Source: Glycomyces sp. L485
GTDB taxonomy: Bacteria; Actinomycetota; Actinomycetes; Mycobacteriales; Micromonosporaceae
Direction of reading: 5' to 3'
DNA: 36,410 nucleotides
Assembly (NCBI RefSeq): GCF_022548875.1
Contig: NZ_JAKZEW010000041.1
Coordinates: 1 to 36,410 of the forward strand
Positions 3,953 to 12,210 of this stretch are shown here, in pieces. The translations under genes were made by a program, and so were the position numbers. Below the pieces are notes generated by a model, which was given only the letters and a program-made list of their open reading frames with translations, was not told where the DNA came from and did not search any database. Each line of letters starts with the position of its first letter. Within the stretch, counting starts at the first letter, position 1.

Positions 3953-4284
3953 CCGGCGCCGAACGGTGTGCGCCCCTAGTCTGTGTGGATCGTTTTGTCA
4001 TCTGAACAGCTGAATACCTCATATGCATGTGACCGAAATTGACTGATTTCAGTCGAATCGCCCTGTAGGTCAGTGGGTTACGGAGTCGACTTGAGAACTC
4101 CAGTACGCCCCTGGATTTCGGGGCCCACATTCGTCATGATGGAATCTGCTGGGCTTCACATGCCGACTCAGCCGCCCCCAGCGGCCGGATGGCAGCCGGC
4201 GCGCGCCGTCGGCCCGAGACAGAACCGGTCCCACATGCCCGGGCCCGGTCTGACAAAGAGGACCACCCCAGGAGGCTAGACAAG
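3945..4284. other. Regulatory region upstream of the conservon
   Basis: No gene is visible in these 340 bases. The middle part is AT-richer than its surroundings (about 3985-4060). A TTGTCA hexamer lies at 3995-4000. A small perfect hairpin or operator-like inverted repeat, GACTG-ATTT-CAGTC, lies at 4041-4054. The cvnA ribosome binding site AGGAGG is at 4270-4275. This is presumably the conservon promoter region, with a long leader if transcription starts near 4030. The exact promoter cannot be assigned by eye. Confidence 0.4.
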
Positions 4285-7200
4285 GTGAGCAAGCGCAGCT
4301 CGAACCGAGCGGGTTCAGCGGCTCGACGAGGGCCGTTGGGTCTGCCCCGCATCGCCGACATGCGAATCAGGTCCAAGCTGGGCCTGATTCTCCTGGTGCC
4401 GCTCCTCGTCCTGGTAGCCGTAGCCGGGCTCCGCCTCTACGACCTGGCCGACCGTGTGTTCGAGTCGGGCGACATGGTGGAGCTGGTCGAGTTCAACTCG
4501 TTCACAGCCGAGTTGCGCTACGAGCTGCAGCGCGAGCGCAGCCTCCTCGTCACCTACCTGCGCCGGGGCGACGACCACGTCAGCGGCATCGACATGGACG
4601 AGTACGACCTCGACGCGGTCAACGCGCAGGCCGCGCTCACCGACGAGGCCCTCGCGGACTTCAACGCGGGCGCCGAGCAGCTGCCGAACCTCTCCGACGA
4701 CATCGACAACCGGATCGCCGCGGTCACCACCCAGTACGAGAGCCTCCTGCAGATCCGCGAAGCCGCCGAGACCAACCCCGAGACCACCTCGATCGACGCG
4801 ACCTCCCGCGTCTACCAGCGCCTGGTCTCCGAGCTGGTCACGATCACCGACGTCTCGGCCCGTATCGTCAACGACCCCGAGATCGCCCGCCAGCTGCAGG
4901 CGATCGCGTCGGCCACGATCATCCTGGAGCAGCTCGAAGAGGAACGCGCCATCGCCATCAACGTCGGCGACGGCCACAGCTTCCTCAACAACACCCGCTG
5001 GACGAACTTCGTCGCCTACTCTGAGCGGCGCGAGCAGGCCGAGACCGAGTTCAAGACCGTCGCCAACCGCGACGAGCAGCTCTCGTTCTTCTACAGCGGC
5101 GGCGGCCTCAGCACCGAGGCGGCCGAGCCTGCGCTGAACTTCGAGGCGCAGACGGTCAGCGCCGGCACCGAGTCGAACCTCACGGTGGACGCCGAGATCA
5201 TCGAGTCCTACGACGCGATCCTCGCCAACGGCCTGTCCTATATCGAGGACGAGTCGAACGAGGTCCTGTCGCACGCCCGGACGGACCGGGACACGCAGAT
5301 CTTCCAGCTCTTGCTGGAGGCCATCCTCATCCTCGCCGCGTTCGTCGTCGCGACCGTGATCGCCCTGGTCATCGCCCGCAACATGAACCACGGCCTGCGG
5401 CGCCTGCGCGAAGGCGCGCTCGACGTCGCCCACGTCAGCCTGCCCCAGGCGGTGGCCCAGATGCGCGACGCCGAGAGCATCGGCAACCGGACGCCGGACG
5501 AGGTCGCCGCCGAGAGCGGCGCGGTCATCGACATCGACCAGCGCGACGAGATCGGCAACGTGGCGCACTCGTTCAACATCGTCCACACCGAGGCGATCCG
5601 CATCGCAGCCGAGCAGGCGGCCCTGCGCGCCAACGTCTCCCAGATGTTCATCAACCTCGCCCGACGCTCCCAGAACCTGGTCGACCGGCTCATCGGCCAC
5701 CTCGATCACCTGGAGCGCGGCGAGGAGAACCCCGACCGCCTCGCCGAGCTGTTCCAGCTCGACCACCTGGCCACCCGAATGCGGCGAAACGACGAGAACC
5801 TCCTGGTCCTCGCGGGCGCCGACTCCACACGCCAGGAGCGCCACCCGGCGCCGGTCGGCGACATCCTCCAGGCGGCCCAGTCCGAGGTGGAGCAGTACAC
5901 CCGCATCGAGTTCGGGCTCCTCGACTCCGACCGCGAGATCAAGCCCGCGTCCGTCAACGACCTCGTCCACCTCGTCGCCGAGCTGATGGACAACGCCACC
6001 GCGTTCTCCCCGCCCGAGTCGCCGGTCCTGGTCGAGGCCGAGCAGATGCGTACCGCCGAGAGCCCCATGGGCGCCATCCGGGTCCGCATCATCGACTCAG
6101 GGATCGGCATGCCCGCGGCGCAGATCGAGGACATCAACCGGCAGCTGTCCGAATCGGCCGACGTCATCGACCTCGCCTCGTCGCGGATGATGGGCCTGGT
6201 CGTGGTCGCCCGCCTGGCCAAGCGCCACAACGTCCGCGTCGAGCTGCGGCCCGGCGAGCAGCGCGGCACAGTCGCAGAGGTCATCCTCGGCGAGTCGGTC
6301 CTGTCCGAGCCGAGGCTCCCCGAGCGCTCCCGCCCCGACAGCGGCGAATCCTTCGGCGACTCGGGCTCGCGCGGCGAGCTGGCCGGCGGCATGAACGCCG
6401 AAACCGGCGTCCTTCCGCGGGTTCCCGAGAGCCCGGCCGGCCTGTTCGACACGGTCGCACCGCCGAACCTCCAGTCCCCGCCGCAGCAGCCGGCCCCGTC
6501 GCCGTACCGCGCTCCCGAACCCACTGCGCCTCCGGCCCCGTCCGCGCCGTCGGCGCACGCCGAGCCGCGCACCGGTGAACACTCCGTCCAGCGGGGCGCC
6601 CAGGACGCGGCCGAGCCCGGCTTCATGTTCCGGCCCGGCGGGAAGACCGCCGACGAGCGCCGTTCCAACGGCAAGGTCATGGAAGTGACCGGGGAGATCG
6701 TCTCCTCCGAGCATGTGGCGCTGCCGAAGATCCAGCTCGAGGCGGCCCCGCAGGTCGAGGAGCCGGTGCCGCCGTCGTGGCCTGACACCGCCGCCGGTTC
6801 GGGTACCGAGGCGCCGCGCAAGTCGATGCGAGCGGACCGAGTCTCCGCGCTCGACGCCACCACGGAGCTCCCGATCTTCCGTGAGGTCGAGTCGGCCTGG
6901 TTCAAGGCGGTCACGCCCGCGCCCAAAACCGTCGACGACACCGCGAAGGTGTCGGACGGGATCCAATCGAGCTACGGTGAGGACCAGGTCCCGGCGGAGT
7001 CGACGGCTCCGGCCTGGGATGCGGCCCCGCAGTCCCCTCCGCAGCCCACGGAAGGCGCCCAGATGCACTCCTCGCCCCCGCCACCCGAGCGTTCTGAGCC
7101 CTCGCAGCAGCAGGTGACGCAACCGATTCCGCAGCGGGTGCAGCAGCAGGCGGCCGAGTCGGGGTTGGAGCGGCGCCGCCTCCAAACCGAACCCGGCGAG

Positions 7201-7458
7201 GACCCCTCTTCGTACGGATGGCGAACCGCTGCCGACGACGGCTGGAGCCGGGTCGACAACGCCTTCGCCGAGACCACCGATGAAACGACCACGGCGGGGC
7301 TCCCCAAGCGCCGTCCGATGGAACGCCTCGTCCCCGGCGGTGTGGAGGAATCACAGGAGACTGTCAGCGCGCAGAAGCGCAACCCCGAAGGCATTCGGGG
7401 CCTGCTGTCGGCCTATCACCGTGGGGTACAGCGAGGACGTGGCAATGACGGTAACTGA
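4285..7458 (+). CDS. cvnA: CvnA-type sensor histidine kinase with nitrate/nitrite-sensing-like extracellular domain
   Basis: A 1057-residue kinase, first gene of a conservon. Order of parts: membrane segment at about 32-51; an extracytoplasmic helical NIT-like sensor domain (about 65-335) starting with the LRYELQRERS type of motif; a second membrane segment (about 339-366); HAMP-like linker; a dimerisation helix with LDHLATRMRR near 495; and a HATPase domain with N-box ELMDNATAFSPP near 565 and G-box DSGIGMP near 603. Then follows a Pro-rich tail of roughly 380 residues with the short motifs SAWFK, DDGW, TAGLPKRRP..LVPGG and GLLSAYHRGVQRGR. GTG at 4285 is chosen because AGGAGG lies nine bases upstream and a basic N-terminus precedes the first membrane segment. 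In Streptomyces, CvnA works with CvnB-D as a membrane-associated G-protein-like complex. Confidence 0.9.
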   Translation: MSKRSSNRAGSAARRGPLGLPRIADMRIRSKLGLILLVPLLVLVAVAGLRLYDLADRVFESGDMVELVEFNSFTAELRYELQRERSLLVTYLRRGDDHVSGIDMDEYDLDAVNAQAALTDEALADFNAGAEQLPNLSDDIDNRIAAVTTQYESLLQIREAAETNPETTSIDATSRVYQRLVSELVTITDVSARIVNDPEIARQLQAIASATIILEQLEEERAIAINVGDGHSFLNNTRWTNFVAYSERREQAETEFKTVANRDEQLSFFYSGGGLSTEAAEPALNFEAQTVSAGTESNLTVDAEIIESYDAILANGLSYIEDESNEVLSHARTDRDTQIFQLLLEAILILAAFVVATVIALVIARNMNHGLRRLREGALDVAHVSLPQAVAQMRDAESIGNRTPDEVAAESGAVIDIDQRDEIGNVAHSFNIVHTEAIRIAAEQAALRANVSQMFINLARRSQNLVDRLIGHLDHLERGEENPDRLAELFQLDHLATRMRRNDENLLVLAGADSTRQERHPAPVGDILQAAQSEVEQYTRIEFGLLDSDREIKPASVNDLVHLVAELMDNATAFSPPESPVLVEAEQMRTAESPMGAIRVRIIDSGIGMPAAQIEDINRQLSESADVIDLASSRMMGLVVVARLAKRHNVRVELRPGEQRGTVAEVILGESVLSEPRLPERSRPDSGESFGDSGSRGELAGGMNAETGVLPRVPESPAGLFDTVAPPNLQSPPQQPAPSPYRAPEPTAPPAPSAPSAHAEPRTGEHSVQRGAQDAAEPGFMFRPGGKTADERRSNGKVMEVTGEIVSSEHVALPKIQLEAAPQVEEPVPPSWPDTAAGSGTEAPRKSMRADRVSALDATTELPIFREVESAWFKAVTPAPKTVDDTAKVSDGIQSSYGEDQVPAESTAPAWDAAPQSPPQPTEGAQMHSSPPPPERSEPSQQQVTQPIPQRVQQQAAESGLERRRLQTEPGEDPSSYGWRTAADDGWSRVDNAFAETTDETTTAGLPKRRPMERLVPGGVEESQETVSAQKRNPEGIRGLLSAYHRGVQRGRGNDGN

Positions 7459-7500: not shown

Positions 7501-7899
7501 ATGAGCACTGGTGGAACTACAGTCCAGGACTTGGGCTGGCTGCTGGCGGGATTCGCCGAACGCGTGCCGGGAGTGGCGCACGCCGTGGCGGTCAGCGCCG
7601 ACGGTCTGCTGCTGGCGTCCTCGCGGGACCTGCCGAGGGACCGGGCCGACCAGCTGTCCGCGGTCACCTCCGGCCTGGTGAGCCTCACCCAGGGGGCCTC
7701 GCGCTGCTTCGAAGGCGGCGCGGTGCTCCAGACGGTCGTGGAGATGGACCACGGATTCCTGTTCCTGATGTCCATCAGTGACGGGTCGTCCTTCGCCGTC
7801 CTGGCCTCGAAGAACTGCGACGTGGGCCAGGTCGGGTACGAGATGGCTCTGCTCGTGGACAGGGTCGGCCAGGCCCTGACCCCGTCGGCACGCAGCTGA
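7501..7899 (+). CDS. cvnB: Roadblock/LC7 domain protein, CvnB
   Basis: A 132-residue single-domain roadblock/LC7 protein. The pattern [20 protein letters not shown] followed by a helix with [14 protein letters not shown] and a terminal helix is typical of bacterial conservon roadblock proteins. These proteins dimerise and act as regulators of the partner small G-protein CvnD. The gene follows cvnA by 42 bases and belongs to the same transcription unit. A paralogue lies on the other strand at 9201-9626 and shares the ADGLPLA/RADQL core. The unusual feature is the 228-base space before cvnC. Confidence 0.92.
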
Positions 7900-8059: not shown

Positions 8060-8127
8060 TGACGGAATAACTGACATGACTGTCGAGTCGGGATTGTGGG
8101 ATCCCGGGGCGGCGGTTGGAGGTAGAA

Positions 8128-8508
8128 ATGGTCCTCGGTGGTGATGAGCCGACAGGCTCACTCGTCAGGCCGTATGCGGTCACTCGCGGCCGCACGCGAC
8201 CCCAATTGGAGATCGCCCTCGAAGCACTGGTGGAGACCACCGCGCGCGGCAGGTCGGGGCAGTTCCTCGGCGGTCGCGAGCAGAAGGTGATCGTCGACCT
8301 CTGCGGTGGCAGACTGCAATCGCTCGCGGAGATCGCCGCCCGCATGGAAGTGCCCTTGGGCGTGGCCCGCGTGCTGGTCGCGGACATGGCGGCCGATGGC
8401 TTGTTGGCAGTGCACGAACCAACTGGATTCAGCGACGAAGACGGCGCCGATGAATCCGTCGGAACCGAACTCCTCGAGCGCGTTCTCAGTGGACTCAGGA
8501 GGCTATAG
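8128..8508 (+). CDS. cvnC: DUF742 protein, CvnC
   Basis: A 126-residue DUF742 protein, the third conservon component. After LVRPYAVTRGRTRP, a hallmark of the family, the middle resembles a small winged-helix fold (SLAEIAARMEVPLGVARVLVADMAADGLL). ATG at 8128 is preferred to a TTG four codons upstream because GGAGGT at 8118-8123 sits at the right distance. cvnD begins six bases after its stop, so the two are probably translationally coupled. In known conservons CvnC binds CvnA or CvnD; its biochemical role is not settled. Confidence 0.9.
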   Translation: MVLGGDEPTGSLVRPYAVTRGRTRPQLEIALEALVETTARGRSGQFLGGREQKVIVDLCGGRLQSLAEIAARMEVPLGVARVLVADMAADGLLAVHEPTGFSDEDGADESVGTELLERVLSGLRRL

Positions 8509-8514
8509 ACCCTA

Positions 8515-9102
8515 ATGAACTCACCCGCAGACACCTCTCGCGTGACCTCCGCGAAGATCGTCATCGCCGGAGGCTTCGGCGTCGGCAAGACGACTCTGGT
8601 CGGATCGGTCTCCGAGATCACTCCGTTGACGACAGAGGCGATCATGACGTCCGCCTCCGAAGGCGTCGACGACAACAACCTCGTGCCCGACAAGTCCACG
8701 ACTACCGTGGCGATGGACTTCGGCCGCATCACCATCGACCAGGACCTGATCCTGTACCTGTTCGGCACGCCCGGACAGACCAGGTTCTGGTTCATGTGGG
8801 ACGAACTGGTGCGCGGCGCGATCGGCGCCATCGTCCTGGTCGACACCCGGCGGTTGGCCGACTGCTTCTCGGTCATCGACTTCTTCGAGCACCGCAAGCT
8901 CCCGTACCTGGTGGCGGTCAACTGCTTCGACGGCAAGCAGCTGCACGACCTCCAGGACATCCGCGACGCCCTCCAGGTGTCGCAGGACGTGCCGCTGATG
9001 TACACCGACGCGCGCAACCGGGAGTCCACCAAGCAGGTCCTCATCAAGCTCGTCGAGTACGTCCTCTCGATGCGGCGCACCCGTACCGTCGGTGTCGGAT
9101 AG
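8515..9102 (+). CDS. cvnD: Small GTP/ATP-binding protein, CvnD
   Basis: A 195-residue P-loop NTPase of the conservon G-protein family, distantly Ras/MglA-like. The P-loop GGFGVGKTT is at 19-27. FGTPGQ corresponds to the G3 region and VNCFDG to G4, where the classical NKxD is replaced, as is usual for CvnD. The sequence TTTVAMDFG is the switch I region. It is thought to act as the output switch of the CvnA-B-C complex at the membrane. It is the last gene of the unit, and a strong hairpin terminator follows 51 bases after the stop. Confidence 0.93.
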   Translation: MNSPADTSRVTSAKIVIAGGFGVGKTTLVGSVSEITPLTTEAIMTSASEGVDDNNLVPDKSTTTVAMDFGRITIDQDLILYLFGTPGQTRFWFMWDELVRGAIGAIVLVDTRRLADCFSVIDFFEHRKLPYLVAVNCFDGKQLHDLQDIRDALQVSQDVPLMYTDARNRESTKQVLIKLVEYVLSMRRTRTVGVG

Positions 9103-9153
9103 AGCCCACACTGAGACCGACCGTCTAGGCTGACCCGAACCACCTGGACCAGA

Positions 9154-9189
9154 GCGAAGGCCCCGGAGCGAAAGCTCCGGGGCCTTCGC
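9154..9189. terminator. Bidirectional hairpin terminator between cvnD and the second roadblock gene
   Basis: GCGAAGGCCCCGGAGC (9154-9169) and its exact complement (9174-9189) form a 16-bp stem closed by a GAAA tetraloop. There is no T tract on either side, which is common in actinobacteria. It sits between convergent genes and can serve both strands. Confidence 0.85.
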
Positions 9190-9200
9190 CGTTGCTTGAG

Positions 9201-9626
9201 TCAGACGACCTTGGGGATGGACCCGGTGTTGGTCAGGGCCTCGTTGAGAAGGGGGCCGACCTGCATCGTGAACTGTCCGAGTTCGTAGCCGAGTTGCTCG
9301 CGGTCGCACTGGGACACCGCCAGCAGCGTCAGGCAGATCTGCGGGCCGACCGGGGCCGCCAGCAGGACGCCCTCGGCCATCTCGACGATGACCTGCTGGG
9401 TCGGGCCGTGGTTCATCGCCCGGCCGGCGCCTTCGCCCATCGACAACAGACCCGAGCCGATGCCGGCGAGCTGATCGGCGCGCTCCTTCGGGAGCCCGGC
9501 CGAGACTGCCAGCGGCAGCCCGTCCACGCTCACCAGCACGGCGTGCGAGAGCCCCGGGGTGCGGGCCACCAGCGAGCCCAGCAGCATGCTGAGTGAACGC
9601 TCGTAGACGCCGAGGTTCGCGCTCAT
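9201..9626 (-). CDS. Second roadblock/LC7 domain protein
   Basis: A 141-residue roadblock/LC7 protein paralogous to CvnB at 7501. TPGLSHAVLVSVDGLPLAVSAGLPKERADQL aligns with [31 protein letters not shown] in CvnB. Its start overlaps the stop of the upstream minus-strand gene by four bases (ATGA type), so the two are almost certainly translated together. No G-protein, DUF742 or kinase gene accompanies it on this strand. It may bind the tail of its upstream partner or exchange with CvnB in the neighbouring conservon; both ideas are inference. Confidence 0.9.
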   Translation of the reverse strand: MSANLGVYERSLSMLLGSLVARTPGLSHAVLVSVDGLPLAVSAGLPKERADQLAGIGSGLLSMGEGAGRAMNHGPTQQVIVEMAEGVLLAAPVGPQICLTLLAVSQCDREQLGYELGQFTMQVGPLLNEALTNTGSIPKVV

Positions 9627-11146
9627 CGGCTCGCCATCCTCTCAGCCTGGCGGGTGCCCATCGGGCCCTGGCCGCCGCCACGCGCTCGCCCCCAGCCCTT
9701 GAAGTAGCCGGAGGTGTTCTGCGCGAGCAGTTCCGCGTCGCGCTCGATCGGCTCGTCGACGCGGGGCAAGTCGTCGGTGACCGAGCCGGGCACGAGGTTC
9801 GCCTGCGGCTTGCGCCGCGGCAGCCCCGCGGCAGTGGTGGCCTCCTCCGCCTCGGGGGCCTCGGTGACGTGGCGGGCGGTGCGCCAGCCGTCGTCGCCGG
9901 GCAGGGTCCACGACTCCGGTTCGGGCTCTTCGCCTTCGGGGCGCTTGAACCAGGCGCTCCTGGCCTGCCCGAAGATGAGCAGGCCGTCGTCGTCATCGGT
10001 CAGGCCGGAGAACTCCTCGAACGTCTCGTCCTTGGGCTGCCATGGGTGGCGGCGGACCTCGTCGACAGGCTCGTCATGGGGCAGGCCCGCGGGCTCGGCG
10101 CGGCGGCGCCGGATGCCGCGGGTCGTGGTCTCGCCCTCGGGCGGCAGCGGGAGGTCGTGAAGGACCTGCGCCGCCTCCGAATCGGGTCGGACGATCGAGT
10201 GGAGCTGCGAGGCCGGGTCGAGTGCCCGCAGGCTCTCGCGGTCGGGGAGGTCGCCGGGGAGCCGCACCGTCTGGTGCGTCTCGACCGAGCGCCGCCGACG
10301 CCTGCCTTCGGTGTGCTCGGGCTCGGGCTCGGGGGCCGGGGCTGGGACGGTTTCGGGACGCGGCCGCTTGGCCTGCAGGAGTCCGATGAGGCCCTCCAGC
10401 GAACGGTCCCACGCGGCCACGGCCCCGGCCGTGGCCGACACCGATGGCGCCACCGACGGGTCGTCGCCGCCGCCGATCTCGCGGATGGCCTCGGTCAGTG
10501 CACCGGCCATCGCCGCGACCTGGCCGGGGTCGGCCACGGTCGCCAGGTCGGCGGCCAGCTCCTCGGTCGAGATCGACTGGATCGCGCCGGGCTGGGGCAA
10601 CCGGGTGAGGATGGCGACGGCGTTGGCCTCACTCGGGTCGTCCCAGGCGGCGAGCGCGGCAGGGAAGACCGCGCGCAGCAGGCAGGTGAGGGCTTCGGAG
10701 GCGTCGTGGCGGGCGCGGGAGGCCGCCGAGACGGTGTCGAGGATGGGGCGCAGGCAGGCGACGTCGGGGCGGGGGGCGAAGGGCTGGTTGCACTGGATCT
10801 CGCCGGTGGCCAGGCCGCGGGCGAGGGCGATGGCGTCGTCGAGGGCGTCCTTGGAGCGGGAGGCGGGACTGGAGGCCTGGACGACGAGGTGTCCGGCGGC
10901 GGAGGCGAACTCGGCGAGCTGACCGACCTCGCCGTCGACGGCGATGGAGAGCGGGGAGGAGCCTGGCGTCTGGCGGGCGAGCAGACCGGCGAATCGGACC
11001 CATCCTCGGGGGTCGTCGCTGAACGTGTCGGTGGCGAGCAGTCCGCCTCCGGCGACGACGAGGGCGACAGCGCACATGGTGTCGCCGTGTCCAGACGGGG
11101 GTCCGTCGGACTTGTGGTCCGTGGTGATGCCGCAGAAAACTTGCAC
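9623..11146 (-). CDS. Degenerate IS110-transposase-like domain fused to a CvnA-like tail
   Basis: A 507-residue protein of unreported type to my knowledge. Residues 1-225 follow the layout of the IS110 DEDD transposase N-terminal domain: FCGI at 4-7, a strand VALVVAGGGLLATD, IAVDGE near 68-73, KDALDDAIALARGL near 99-112, a helical LRPILDTVSAASRARHDASEALTCLLRAVFP-like stretch at 132-162, and LTRLPQPG near 180-187. The first catalytic Asp expected after FCGI is Thr here. The C-terminal transposase domain with the catalytic Ser is absent. Instead there is an acidic/Pro/Arg-rich segment (about 255-390) and a tail with SAWFK (397-401), DDGWRTA (418-424), TTAAGLPRRKPQANLVPG (437-454) and YFKGWGRARGGG (481-492). 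These match the CvnA tail in order. GTG start at 11146 has GAGGAG upstream. It is coupled to the roadblock gene. A domesticated transposase is inferred. Confidence 0.85.
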   Translation of the reverse strand: MQVFCGITTDHKSDGPPSGHGDTMCAVALVVAGGGLLATDTFSDDPRGWVRFAGLLARQTPGSSPLSIAVDGEVGQLAEFASAAGHLVVQASSPASRSKDALDDAIALARGLATGEIQCNQPFAPRPDVACLRPILDTVSAASRARHDASEALTCLLRAVFPAALAAWDDPSEANAVAILTRLPQPGAIQSISTEELAADLATVADPGQVAAMAGALTEAIREIGGGDDPSVAPSVSATAGAVAAWDRSLEGLIGLLQAKRPRPETVPAPAPEPEPEHTEGRRRRRSVETHQTVRLPGDLPDRESLRALDPASQLHSIVRPDSEAAQVLHDLPLPPEGETTTRGIRRRRAEPAGLPHDEPVDEVRRHPWQPKDETFEEFSGLTDDDDGLLIFGQARSAWFKRPEGEEPEPESWTLPGDDGWRTARHVTEAPEAEEATTAAGLPRRKPQANLVPGSVTDDLPRVDEPIERDAELLAQNTSGYFKGWGRARGGGQGPMGTRQAERMASR

Positions 11147-11412
11147 CCGCAGAGCTCCTCTCGTAGGGCGCGCCCGTCCAGGCGCCGACCCTGTCGGCGT
11201 GGACTTTCGCCCGGCCCGTTTATAAGTCCGTTATCAGTTTTCCGCAGAATACTCCGATCCGCAAGCCGGAGGCGAGCGCGGGTCATCATCTGAATTGCGG
11301 GGATAGCACGCAAAACCGTCAATCCCCGGGAGAGGAATTGTCTGAATCCTTTAAGGAATAACCGATTGCAGTCGCCGCGATCACAATGCGGCGGAATCGG
11401 AGTCGAAAGGAG

Positions 11413-12210
11413 CTATTCGGCGCCGCCGCGCCACTCCGAGGCGGCGTTGATCTTGCCGATGACGCCGCGCCAGGCGATCGCCGCCTGCTCGGCGCCGGTC
11501 TTGCGAAGCCGCCGCTTGGCGAACATGGCGCGCAGGCCGCCGTCCATGACGACCCGAAGCGCTTCGTCGATGTCGTCCAGCGGAGAACCGGGCGCGAGTG
11601 CGTCGACGACCGACTCGAGCTTCAGTGCGTAACCGAGGTCCCGGCCGATCTCGGCGGCCTTGACGAGGAGCTCGGGTTCCCACGAGTCGTGGCCGCCACG
11701 CAGATTCTCGGTGACCAGATCCAATTCATAGATGTCGTCTTCATCACACACGACGGCATCTGCGGCAATGCGTTTCTGGAGATCGCCGTATTCGTCGATC
11801 ACGGCCAAGTCGTGGTCATCCGACTCCTTGACGAATCGGACCAGTGACTCCTTGTCGCGGAACACGAGCAGCTTGCCTTTACGCGTCAGGAAGACCGGCA
11901 CCTCCTCCGGGGCGGCGTCGAGCGCGTCGACCTCGTCCTCGTCGAGGAAGTCGGCCTCGTCGGGTGCCGGAGCCGACTCGTCCTCGGCGTTCTCTGCGAT
12001 GTCCGGCCGCTCCTCGGCCGTTTCGGGCTCGGCCTGCTCCTCCGGCTCGCCGGCCGGTGCCGCGCCGGGGAGCGTGTCCGACATGCGATAGGCGCGCAGG
12101 GTGAAGCCGGAGTCCTTGCCCAAGTGGAGCTCCACCGGGTCGACACTGGTCTCGTTCCAGAGCTTGTCGGCCTCGGCACTCCGAGTCCGTTCGTCGGATG
12201 CGGCAGCCAT
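11413..12210 (-). CDS. Conserved actinobacterial acidic protein (often labelled primosomal-like)
   Basis: A 265-residue soluble protein. It opens with RTRSAEADKLWNETSVDPVELHLG, a block I associate with a conserved actinobacterial family sometimes labelled primosomal protein or DNA primase without firm support. Residues about 48-100 form a very acidic low-complexity linker. The C-terminal part has VPVFLTRKGKLLVFRD, DDIYELDLVTENLRGGHDSWEP and WRGVIGKINA. The function is unknown and no catalytic motif is evident. The ATG at 12210 has GGGAGGA eight bases upstream. It is divergent from the secretion-type operon that starts at 12459 and lies 266 bases upstream of the transposase-like gene, in the same direction. 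Confidence 0.85.
   Translation of the reverse strand: MAAASDERTRSAEADKLWNETSVDPVELHLGKDSGFTLRAYRMSDTLPGAAPAGEPEEQAEPETAEERPDIAENAEDESAPAPDEADFLDEDEVDALDAAPEEVPVFLTRKGKLLVFRDKESLVRFVKESDDHDLAVIDEYGDLQKRIAADAVVCDEDDIYELDLVTENLRGGHDSWEPELLVKAAEIGRDLGYALKLESVVDALAPGSPLDDIDEALRVVMDGGLRAMFAKRRLRKTGAEQAAIAWRGVIGKINAASEWRGGAE

Follow-up and report, generated by a model that had tools for sequence, protein, structure and literature searches.

A stretch of 36,410 nucleotides from Glycomyces sp. L485 (contig NZ_JAKZEW010000041.1, assembly GCF_022548875.1; hereafter the window) encodes a 507-aa protein that is probably a scaffold exapted from IS110, catalytically dead and attached to a conservon G-protein system via a C-terminal tail of the type carried by CvnA sensor kinases. 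Judged from profile comparisons and a structural model, the protein was exapted from an RNA-guided IS110-family recombinase, with the helical and RuvC-like parts kept, amounting to the N-terminal two thirds of the transposase, and the C-terminal tail of a CvnA kinase gained. The gene and the domains of its product are laid out as follows:

9623..11146, minus strand: IS110-derived protein with a CvnA-type tail (P0001), an open reading frame (ORF) of 507 aa with a GTG start
10772..11146, minus strand: RuvC-like domain, DEDD_Tnp_IS110-derived, residues 1-125, from profile and fold matches to IS110
10361..10771, minus strand: helical coiled-coil/Nop-like domain of IS110, residues 126-262, from hidden Markov model (HMM) and hhalign alignments and Nop5/Nop56 fold matches
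9998..10360, minus strand: low-confidence linker, residues 263-383, from low pLDDT (predicted local distance difference test) and alignment
9668..9997, minus strand: CvnA-type tail, residues 384-493 (LLIF..SAWF; DDGW; GLPRRxPQANLVPG; GYFKGWxRAR), from tail HMMs and motifs

The IS110 origin of the protein is near certain. A first-pass annotation of this DNA had read the layout of the IS110 DEDD domain in the N-terminus, and its reading is borne out: the motifs it listed are all present (FCGI spanning residues 4-7, with Thr8 next, IAVDGE around D71, KDALDDAIALAR, and LTRLPQPG), and matches to IS110 were found both by profile and by fold. A profile of the N-termini of the protein's family retrieves complete IS110 transposases (E 5e-29), with both IS110 domains present in 10/10 of the retrieved proteins that were scanned. 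PF01548 matches above its cut-off in 2/10 relatives, and a PF01548 search of the genome itself misses the gene 9623..11146, the window protein lying below Pfam detection. The best fold matches for the model are IS110 recombinases, and HMM and hhalign alignments to IS110 continue through the helical domain (hhalign 99.2 and 98.0 for one IS110 set under different options), the fold of which also matches the Nop5/Nop56 region. On these profile and model comparisons, the RuvC-like domain is homologous to PF01548; a single long branch (L106) in the IS110 tree leaves the point of origin unsure. The relatives listed at E<=0.001 comprise 73 proteins, counting the protein itself and one tail-only kinase match. 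Prp8 rows from a scan of PDB sequences with the window protein, at E 0.088 or worse, were taken as chance, and P0060 had no match when searched against PDB sequences.

IS621 uses D11, E60, D102, D105 and S241, and mutating any of these abolished recombination (PMC11208158). The corresponding residues of the window protein are T8, D71, A101 and D104, residue 8 sitting at about the place of D11 (the structural alignment pairs model residue 1 with chain residue 4). The Thr that the first-pass annotation noted in place of the first catalytic Asp after FCGI belongs to a general loss. We examined 158 entries, made up of 79 database proteins and 79 loci (some genes being counted twice). For the loci, the 80 top-ranking of 264 relatives were taken, 79 of them distinct, so that distant relatives are under-represented. 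The first Asp is missing from all 151 readable entries, which have Ala (77), Thr (71), Val (2) or Gly (1) after CG[ILVMFA]; the other seven lack this motif and are unreadable. This motif-based count was used instead of the hmmalign column, which is blurred by a gap (one Asp among 158). At the E60 position of the HMM alignment, 131/158 entries have Asp; the D102 position is Ala in 128/158 and the D105 position is Arg in 82/158 and Asp in 59/158. The Ser-containing C-terminal transposase domain is gone, as had also been claimed: none of the 158 entries matches an HMM of 13 IS110 C-termini, and PF02371 (Transposase_20, the catalytic Ser domain) was found in 0/52 at E<=0.01. The relatives examined have neither the first Asp nor the C-terminal domain and, as far as alignment can tell, the intact DEDD tetrad is not retained in the family of the 507-aa protein.

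The 507-aa protein and the CvnA encoded ∼2 kb away share four motifs in one and the same order (SAWFK, DDGW, GLPRRxPxxxLVPG and a terminal GxxRxRG); the earlier observation to this effect can be seen directly in the sequence and is backed by reciprocal profile matches. Across the 79 loci and the window, the only ORFs of at least 80 aa that an HMM of the family tails matches are 78 of the family and 57 of CvnA (E<=2.3e-13). In the other direction, a profile made up solely of CvnA tails recovers the 507-aa protein in a whole-genome search (E 8e-14) and an orthologue in another genome (E 4.9e-13); this profile was built with the window CvnA and a second CvnA of the same genome, whose two matches are by construction, while the matches to the family of the 507-aa protein in the two genomes are not. 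At the level of sequence, the homology of the tail to CvnA kinases thus holds in both search directions, and the motifs exceed chance. The CvnA-tail profile matches in 48/148 genomes of the class, 46 of the 48 lying outside the family of the window, and mostly in frames of 740-1,457 aa that are CvnA-sized (assigned by size alone), so that the tail is probably older in CvnA than in the IS110-derived protein. Capture of a CvnA tail by an IS110 piece would be the simplest order of events. Tail-like ends also occur elsewhere in this genome, one CvnA-like frame (L142) ending in GLPRRQPMSNLVPG with a tail-HMM match at E 1e-12 and another (L140) ending in the similar LPKRNKQAHLAPQLR without such a match. 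A separate case is P0050, a 609-aa protein encoded on a single metagenome contig of 1998 bp, in which a family tail and a CvnA tail stand in series between a Peptidase_C14 caspase-like N-terminal part and a DivIVA-like C-terminus; Glycomyces caspase/DivIVA frames in G017 and G004 pass straight from caspase to DivIVA with no tails. Either a decoy module or a chimera of assembly could account for P0050, and no second such architecture was found among 120 listed of 245 matches.

Transposase exaptation is a known phenomenon, and the domestication that the first-pass annotation had proposed here is supported by a near-universal gene kept at a fixed locus. Matches at E<=1e-10 were found in 296/300 genomes drawn from the GTDB family and in 43/44 genera, usually as a single match per genome; among the top matches of the genomes, the weakest noticed was 2e-37. 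The four genomes without a match are assemblies of 360-780 contigs. The signs of mobility looked for, several copies and variable sites, were not seen: the gene has a single match in its own genome, and the gene upstream is the same in 79/79 loci. A scan of viral contigs confirmed no relative. The absence of IS ends, also noted earlier, stands insofar as the two inverted-repeat pairs flanking the gene (I1 and I7, 16-21 nt with 81 and 88% complementarity) are imperfect and lie off its borders; as an argument it is weak, because long terminal inverted repeats are not a feature of IS110 elements in any case (PMC11208158). Median omega between the window and 20 Glycomyces loci, obtained by pairwise counting of each locus against the window so that pairs are not independent, was 0.42 for the RuvC-like domain, 0.086 for the helical domain, 0.51 for the linker and 0.27 for the tail. 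Conservation is highest in the helical domain, and the dead RuvC-like domain evolves faster.

The gene is convergent to the conservon cvnA-cvnB-cvnC-cvnD, and the features around it are:

4189..7458, plus strand: CvnA sensor kinase with NIT, sub-threshold HAMP and HATPase, and its tail at 6856-7455, from Pfam and the tail HMM
7501..7899, plus strand: CvnB roadblock/LC7 protein, from Pfam (Robl_LC7)
8116..8508, plus strand: CvnC (DUF742), from Pfam
8515..9102, plus strand: CvnD small GTPase, from a GTPase-type Pfam match
9154..9189, no strand: perfect 16-bp hairpin (inverted repeat I3) between convergent cvnD and ROB2
9201..9626, minus strand: ROB2, a second roadblock/LC7 protein (PF03259 at 67.7 bits), in a clade apart from CvnB
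11413..12210, minus strand: upstream neighbor common to the 79 loci, with a weak SatS family-model match

This neighborhood with conservon genes is conserved: cvnD lies convergent downstream in 63/79 loci and CvnA is visible in 56 of those 63, which makes the IS110-derived protein an addition and not a replacement. The first-pass annotation had proposed that a transposase fold was recruited into a signaling complex where it takes the place of the kinase; the first part is upheld by the IS110 origin, the CvnA-type tail and domestication, and the second is not supported by these loci. The start codon of ROB2 overlaps the stop of the IS110-derived gene (ATGA), as it does in 7 Glycomyces loci inspected. 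In a roadblock tree with 4 of 24 inner branches well supported, we used the ROB2 clade alone, which holds 10/11 rows with support 100/99; the eleventh row (L073) is too incomplete to place. In eight outgroup loci, identified by the upstream neighbor in other families of the order, single-sequence searches of the 12-19 kb fetched detected no conservon and no copy of the gene; these loci fit a derived gene block, and the ancestral site was not found there. The hairpin at 9154-9189 is perhaps a shared terminator, with none called there by terminator prediction. Against the model of SatS, an export chaperone of mycobacteria, the upstream neighbor scores 39 bits (cut-off 700).

A number of observations weigh against an IS110-derived partner of the conservon. 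Pfam and NCBIfam scans of the window protein itself gave no match, so the fold, first called by eye, needed outside evidence, and the link to IS110 draws on the relatives and on the model of the window protein. Foldseek comparison of the whole two-domain model with IS110 gave template modeling (TM) scores of 0.32-0.36 at a root mean square deviation (rmsd) of 17-20 Å, with one E-value <0.001, and close superposition is limited to the RuvC-like domain. The Asp kept at the second acidic position in those 131/158 entries may make some metal binding conceivable. Among the 16 loci without cvnD, the fetched stretch ends within 5.2 kb in nine, and the other seven have at least 5.8 kb downstream and yet no cvnD. 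ROB2 was found by single-sequence search in 26/79 loci and not in 53 (two of which end right after the gene); the roadblock neighbor, the constancy of which the first-pass annotation had proposed to check, is not a fixed feature. Lastly, a tail-bearing kinase-sized frame occurs on another contig in 5/21 Glycomyces genomes with matches.

Four other explanations were considered. The protein might be an unrelated RNase H-like protein (of the Tex/Spt6, RuvC or sugar-kinase type) that merely resembles IS110, which we regard as very improbable given that the IS110 rows outrank the next entry by 2.5 Z and 2.9 Z in two structure searches and that the sequence match also spans the IS110 helical domain. 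Loss of the catalytic residues and C-terminal domain would be expected of a decaying, functionless transposase remnant that happens to adjoin a conservon, but such a remnant is scarcely credible for a gene kept in 296/300 genomes, with invariant tail positions and with the purifying selection seen in the helical domain (0.086) and tail (0.27). A decoy or inhibitor, sequestering a partner from CvnA by means of its soluble tail and so weakening the pathway, with no positive scaffold role, would agree with a tail that lacks a kinase domain and with a kinase still encoded nearby in most loci. By itself, this leaves the strong conservation of the helical domain and the overlapping roadblock gene unexplained, and we consider it unlikely.

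We also speculated that the protein could be an RNA-binding signaling protein, its retained Nop-like helical domain binding RNA and placing the conservon under RNA control. In favor are the helical domain, better conserved than any other part and similar to Nop5/Nop56, the description of the RNA-binding region of IS110 as Nop-like (PMC12045711), and, within Glycomyces, conserved segments in the 184 bp upstream, with two-sided changes in 5/37 predicted pairs. However, the net charge of the helical domain has shifted from a median of +4 (12 IS110) to -5 (156 family entries; -11 in 63 Glycomyces), which makes RNA binding less likely. Furthermore, the ∼70 bp between the upstream frame and the gene in most Micromonosporaceae loci is too short for a cis bridge RNA (gaps of ∼2-3 kb in L047, L049, L052, L053, L065, L072 and L079 are artefacts of loci anchored by the tail alone), no Rfam match near the gathering score was found at 9000-11500, and the covariation term contributes only -1.53 of -35.5 kcal/mol. 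We therefore view RNA control as improbable, more so than the decoy. Within the upstream region (11147-11330), ∼35 bp (GAGTATTCTGCGGAAAACTGATAACGGACT and neighbors) and a stretch before the start are nearly invariant in 13 Glycomyces sequences; they are perhaps a promoter or a regulator site, with no match to the sigma-70 consensus.

Comparison with known systems places the protein between several. It shares with the IS110-family recombinases IS621 and ISCro4 (PF01548 plus PF02371) the RuvC-like fold, helical domain, motifs and best PDB matches, but it has no C-terminal transposase domain, has lost the first Asp, occupies a fixed single locus and carries a CvnA-type tail. The Piv/MooV invertases are reportedly relatives of IS110 transposases with another role; unlike the 507-aa protein, Piv is said to need its DEDD motif and to recombine DNA. 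With CvnA sensor kinases it has in common a C-terminal tail whose motifs and their order agree, whereas the Pfam scan gave it no NIT, HAMP or HATPase match. The conservon accessory proteins CvnE and CvnF are likewise extra proteins tied to a conservon (PMC13343842). There, CvnF is a GAF-domain protein accompanying a CvnA without a sensor domain; here the neighboring CvnA has NIT, and the protein is IS110-derived, its Pfam scan finding no GAF domain and its model consisting of RuvC-like and helical parts. That 2026 paper on CvnF8 describes CvnE and CvnF, and a term search of its main text found neither "transposase" nor "IS110". Nop5 of box C/D ribonucleoproteins also uses an inactive RuvC-like domain and a Nop/coiled-coil domain as a protein platform (PMC12045711), but belongs to an RNA-modification machine, in contrast to the acidic helical domain and signaling context found here. 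Searches of the open-access literature, outside which most subscription journals lie, listed no account of IS110 proteins taking on a role other than DNA recombination and none of the family of the 507-aa protein.

We infer that the 507-aa protein functions as a scaffold or adaptor in conservon signaling. In an ancestor of the GTDB Micromonosporaceae (Glycomyces included), a transposase lost its C-terminal domain and first catalytic Asp and gained a CvnA tail, and it would now serve as a catalytically dead scaffold or adaptor. The coiled-coil domain of IS621 mediates dimerization (PMC11208158), and the helical domain here may likewise make a dimer that presents two CvnA-type tails. These tails would dock onto the partner of CvnA's own tail, and the protein would help, or compete with, the membrane kinase in determining which state the CvnB/C/D G-protein module adopts, acting, where ROB2 exists, together with this translationally coupled protein. 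With marginally less confidence than the docked scaffold itself, we favor a single exaptation of an IS110 recombinase in the family ancestor into a core non-catalytic component of small-GTPase signaling, in which the RuvC-like and helical domains would form a dimeric scaffold and the kinase tail would give docking specificity.

The family that holds the gene includes many antibiotic producers. The conservon signal path is poorly understood (PMC13343842). Because the gene is close to universal in the family, it should be part of how the family runs its conservon G-protein systems. The shared tail would define a docking module, such that whatever binds it should bind CvnA and the IS110-derived protein alike. 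The gene would also show what IS110 keeps once catalysis is gone, the helical domain being held and the RuvC-like domain evolving faster, and, if the proposed role is true, it would offer a parallel to the dead RuvC/Nop scaffold of the box C/D proteins.
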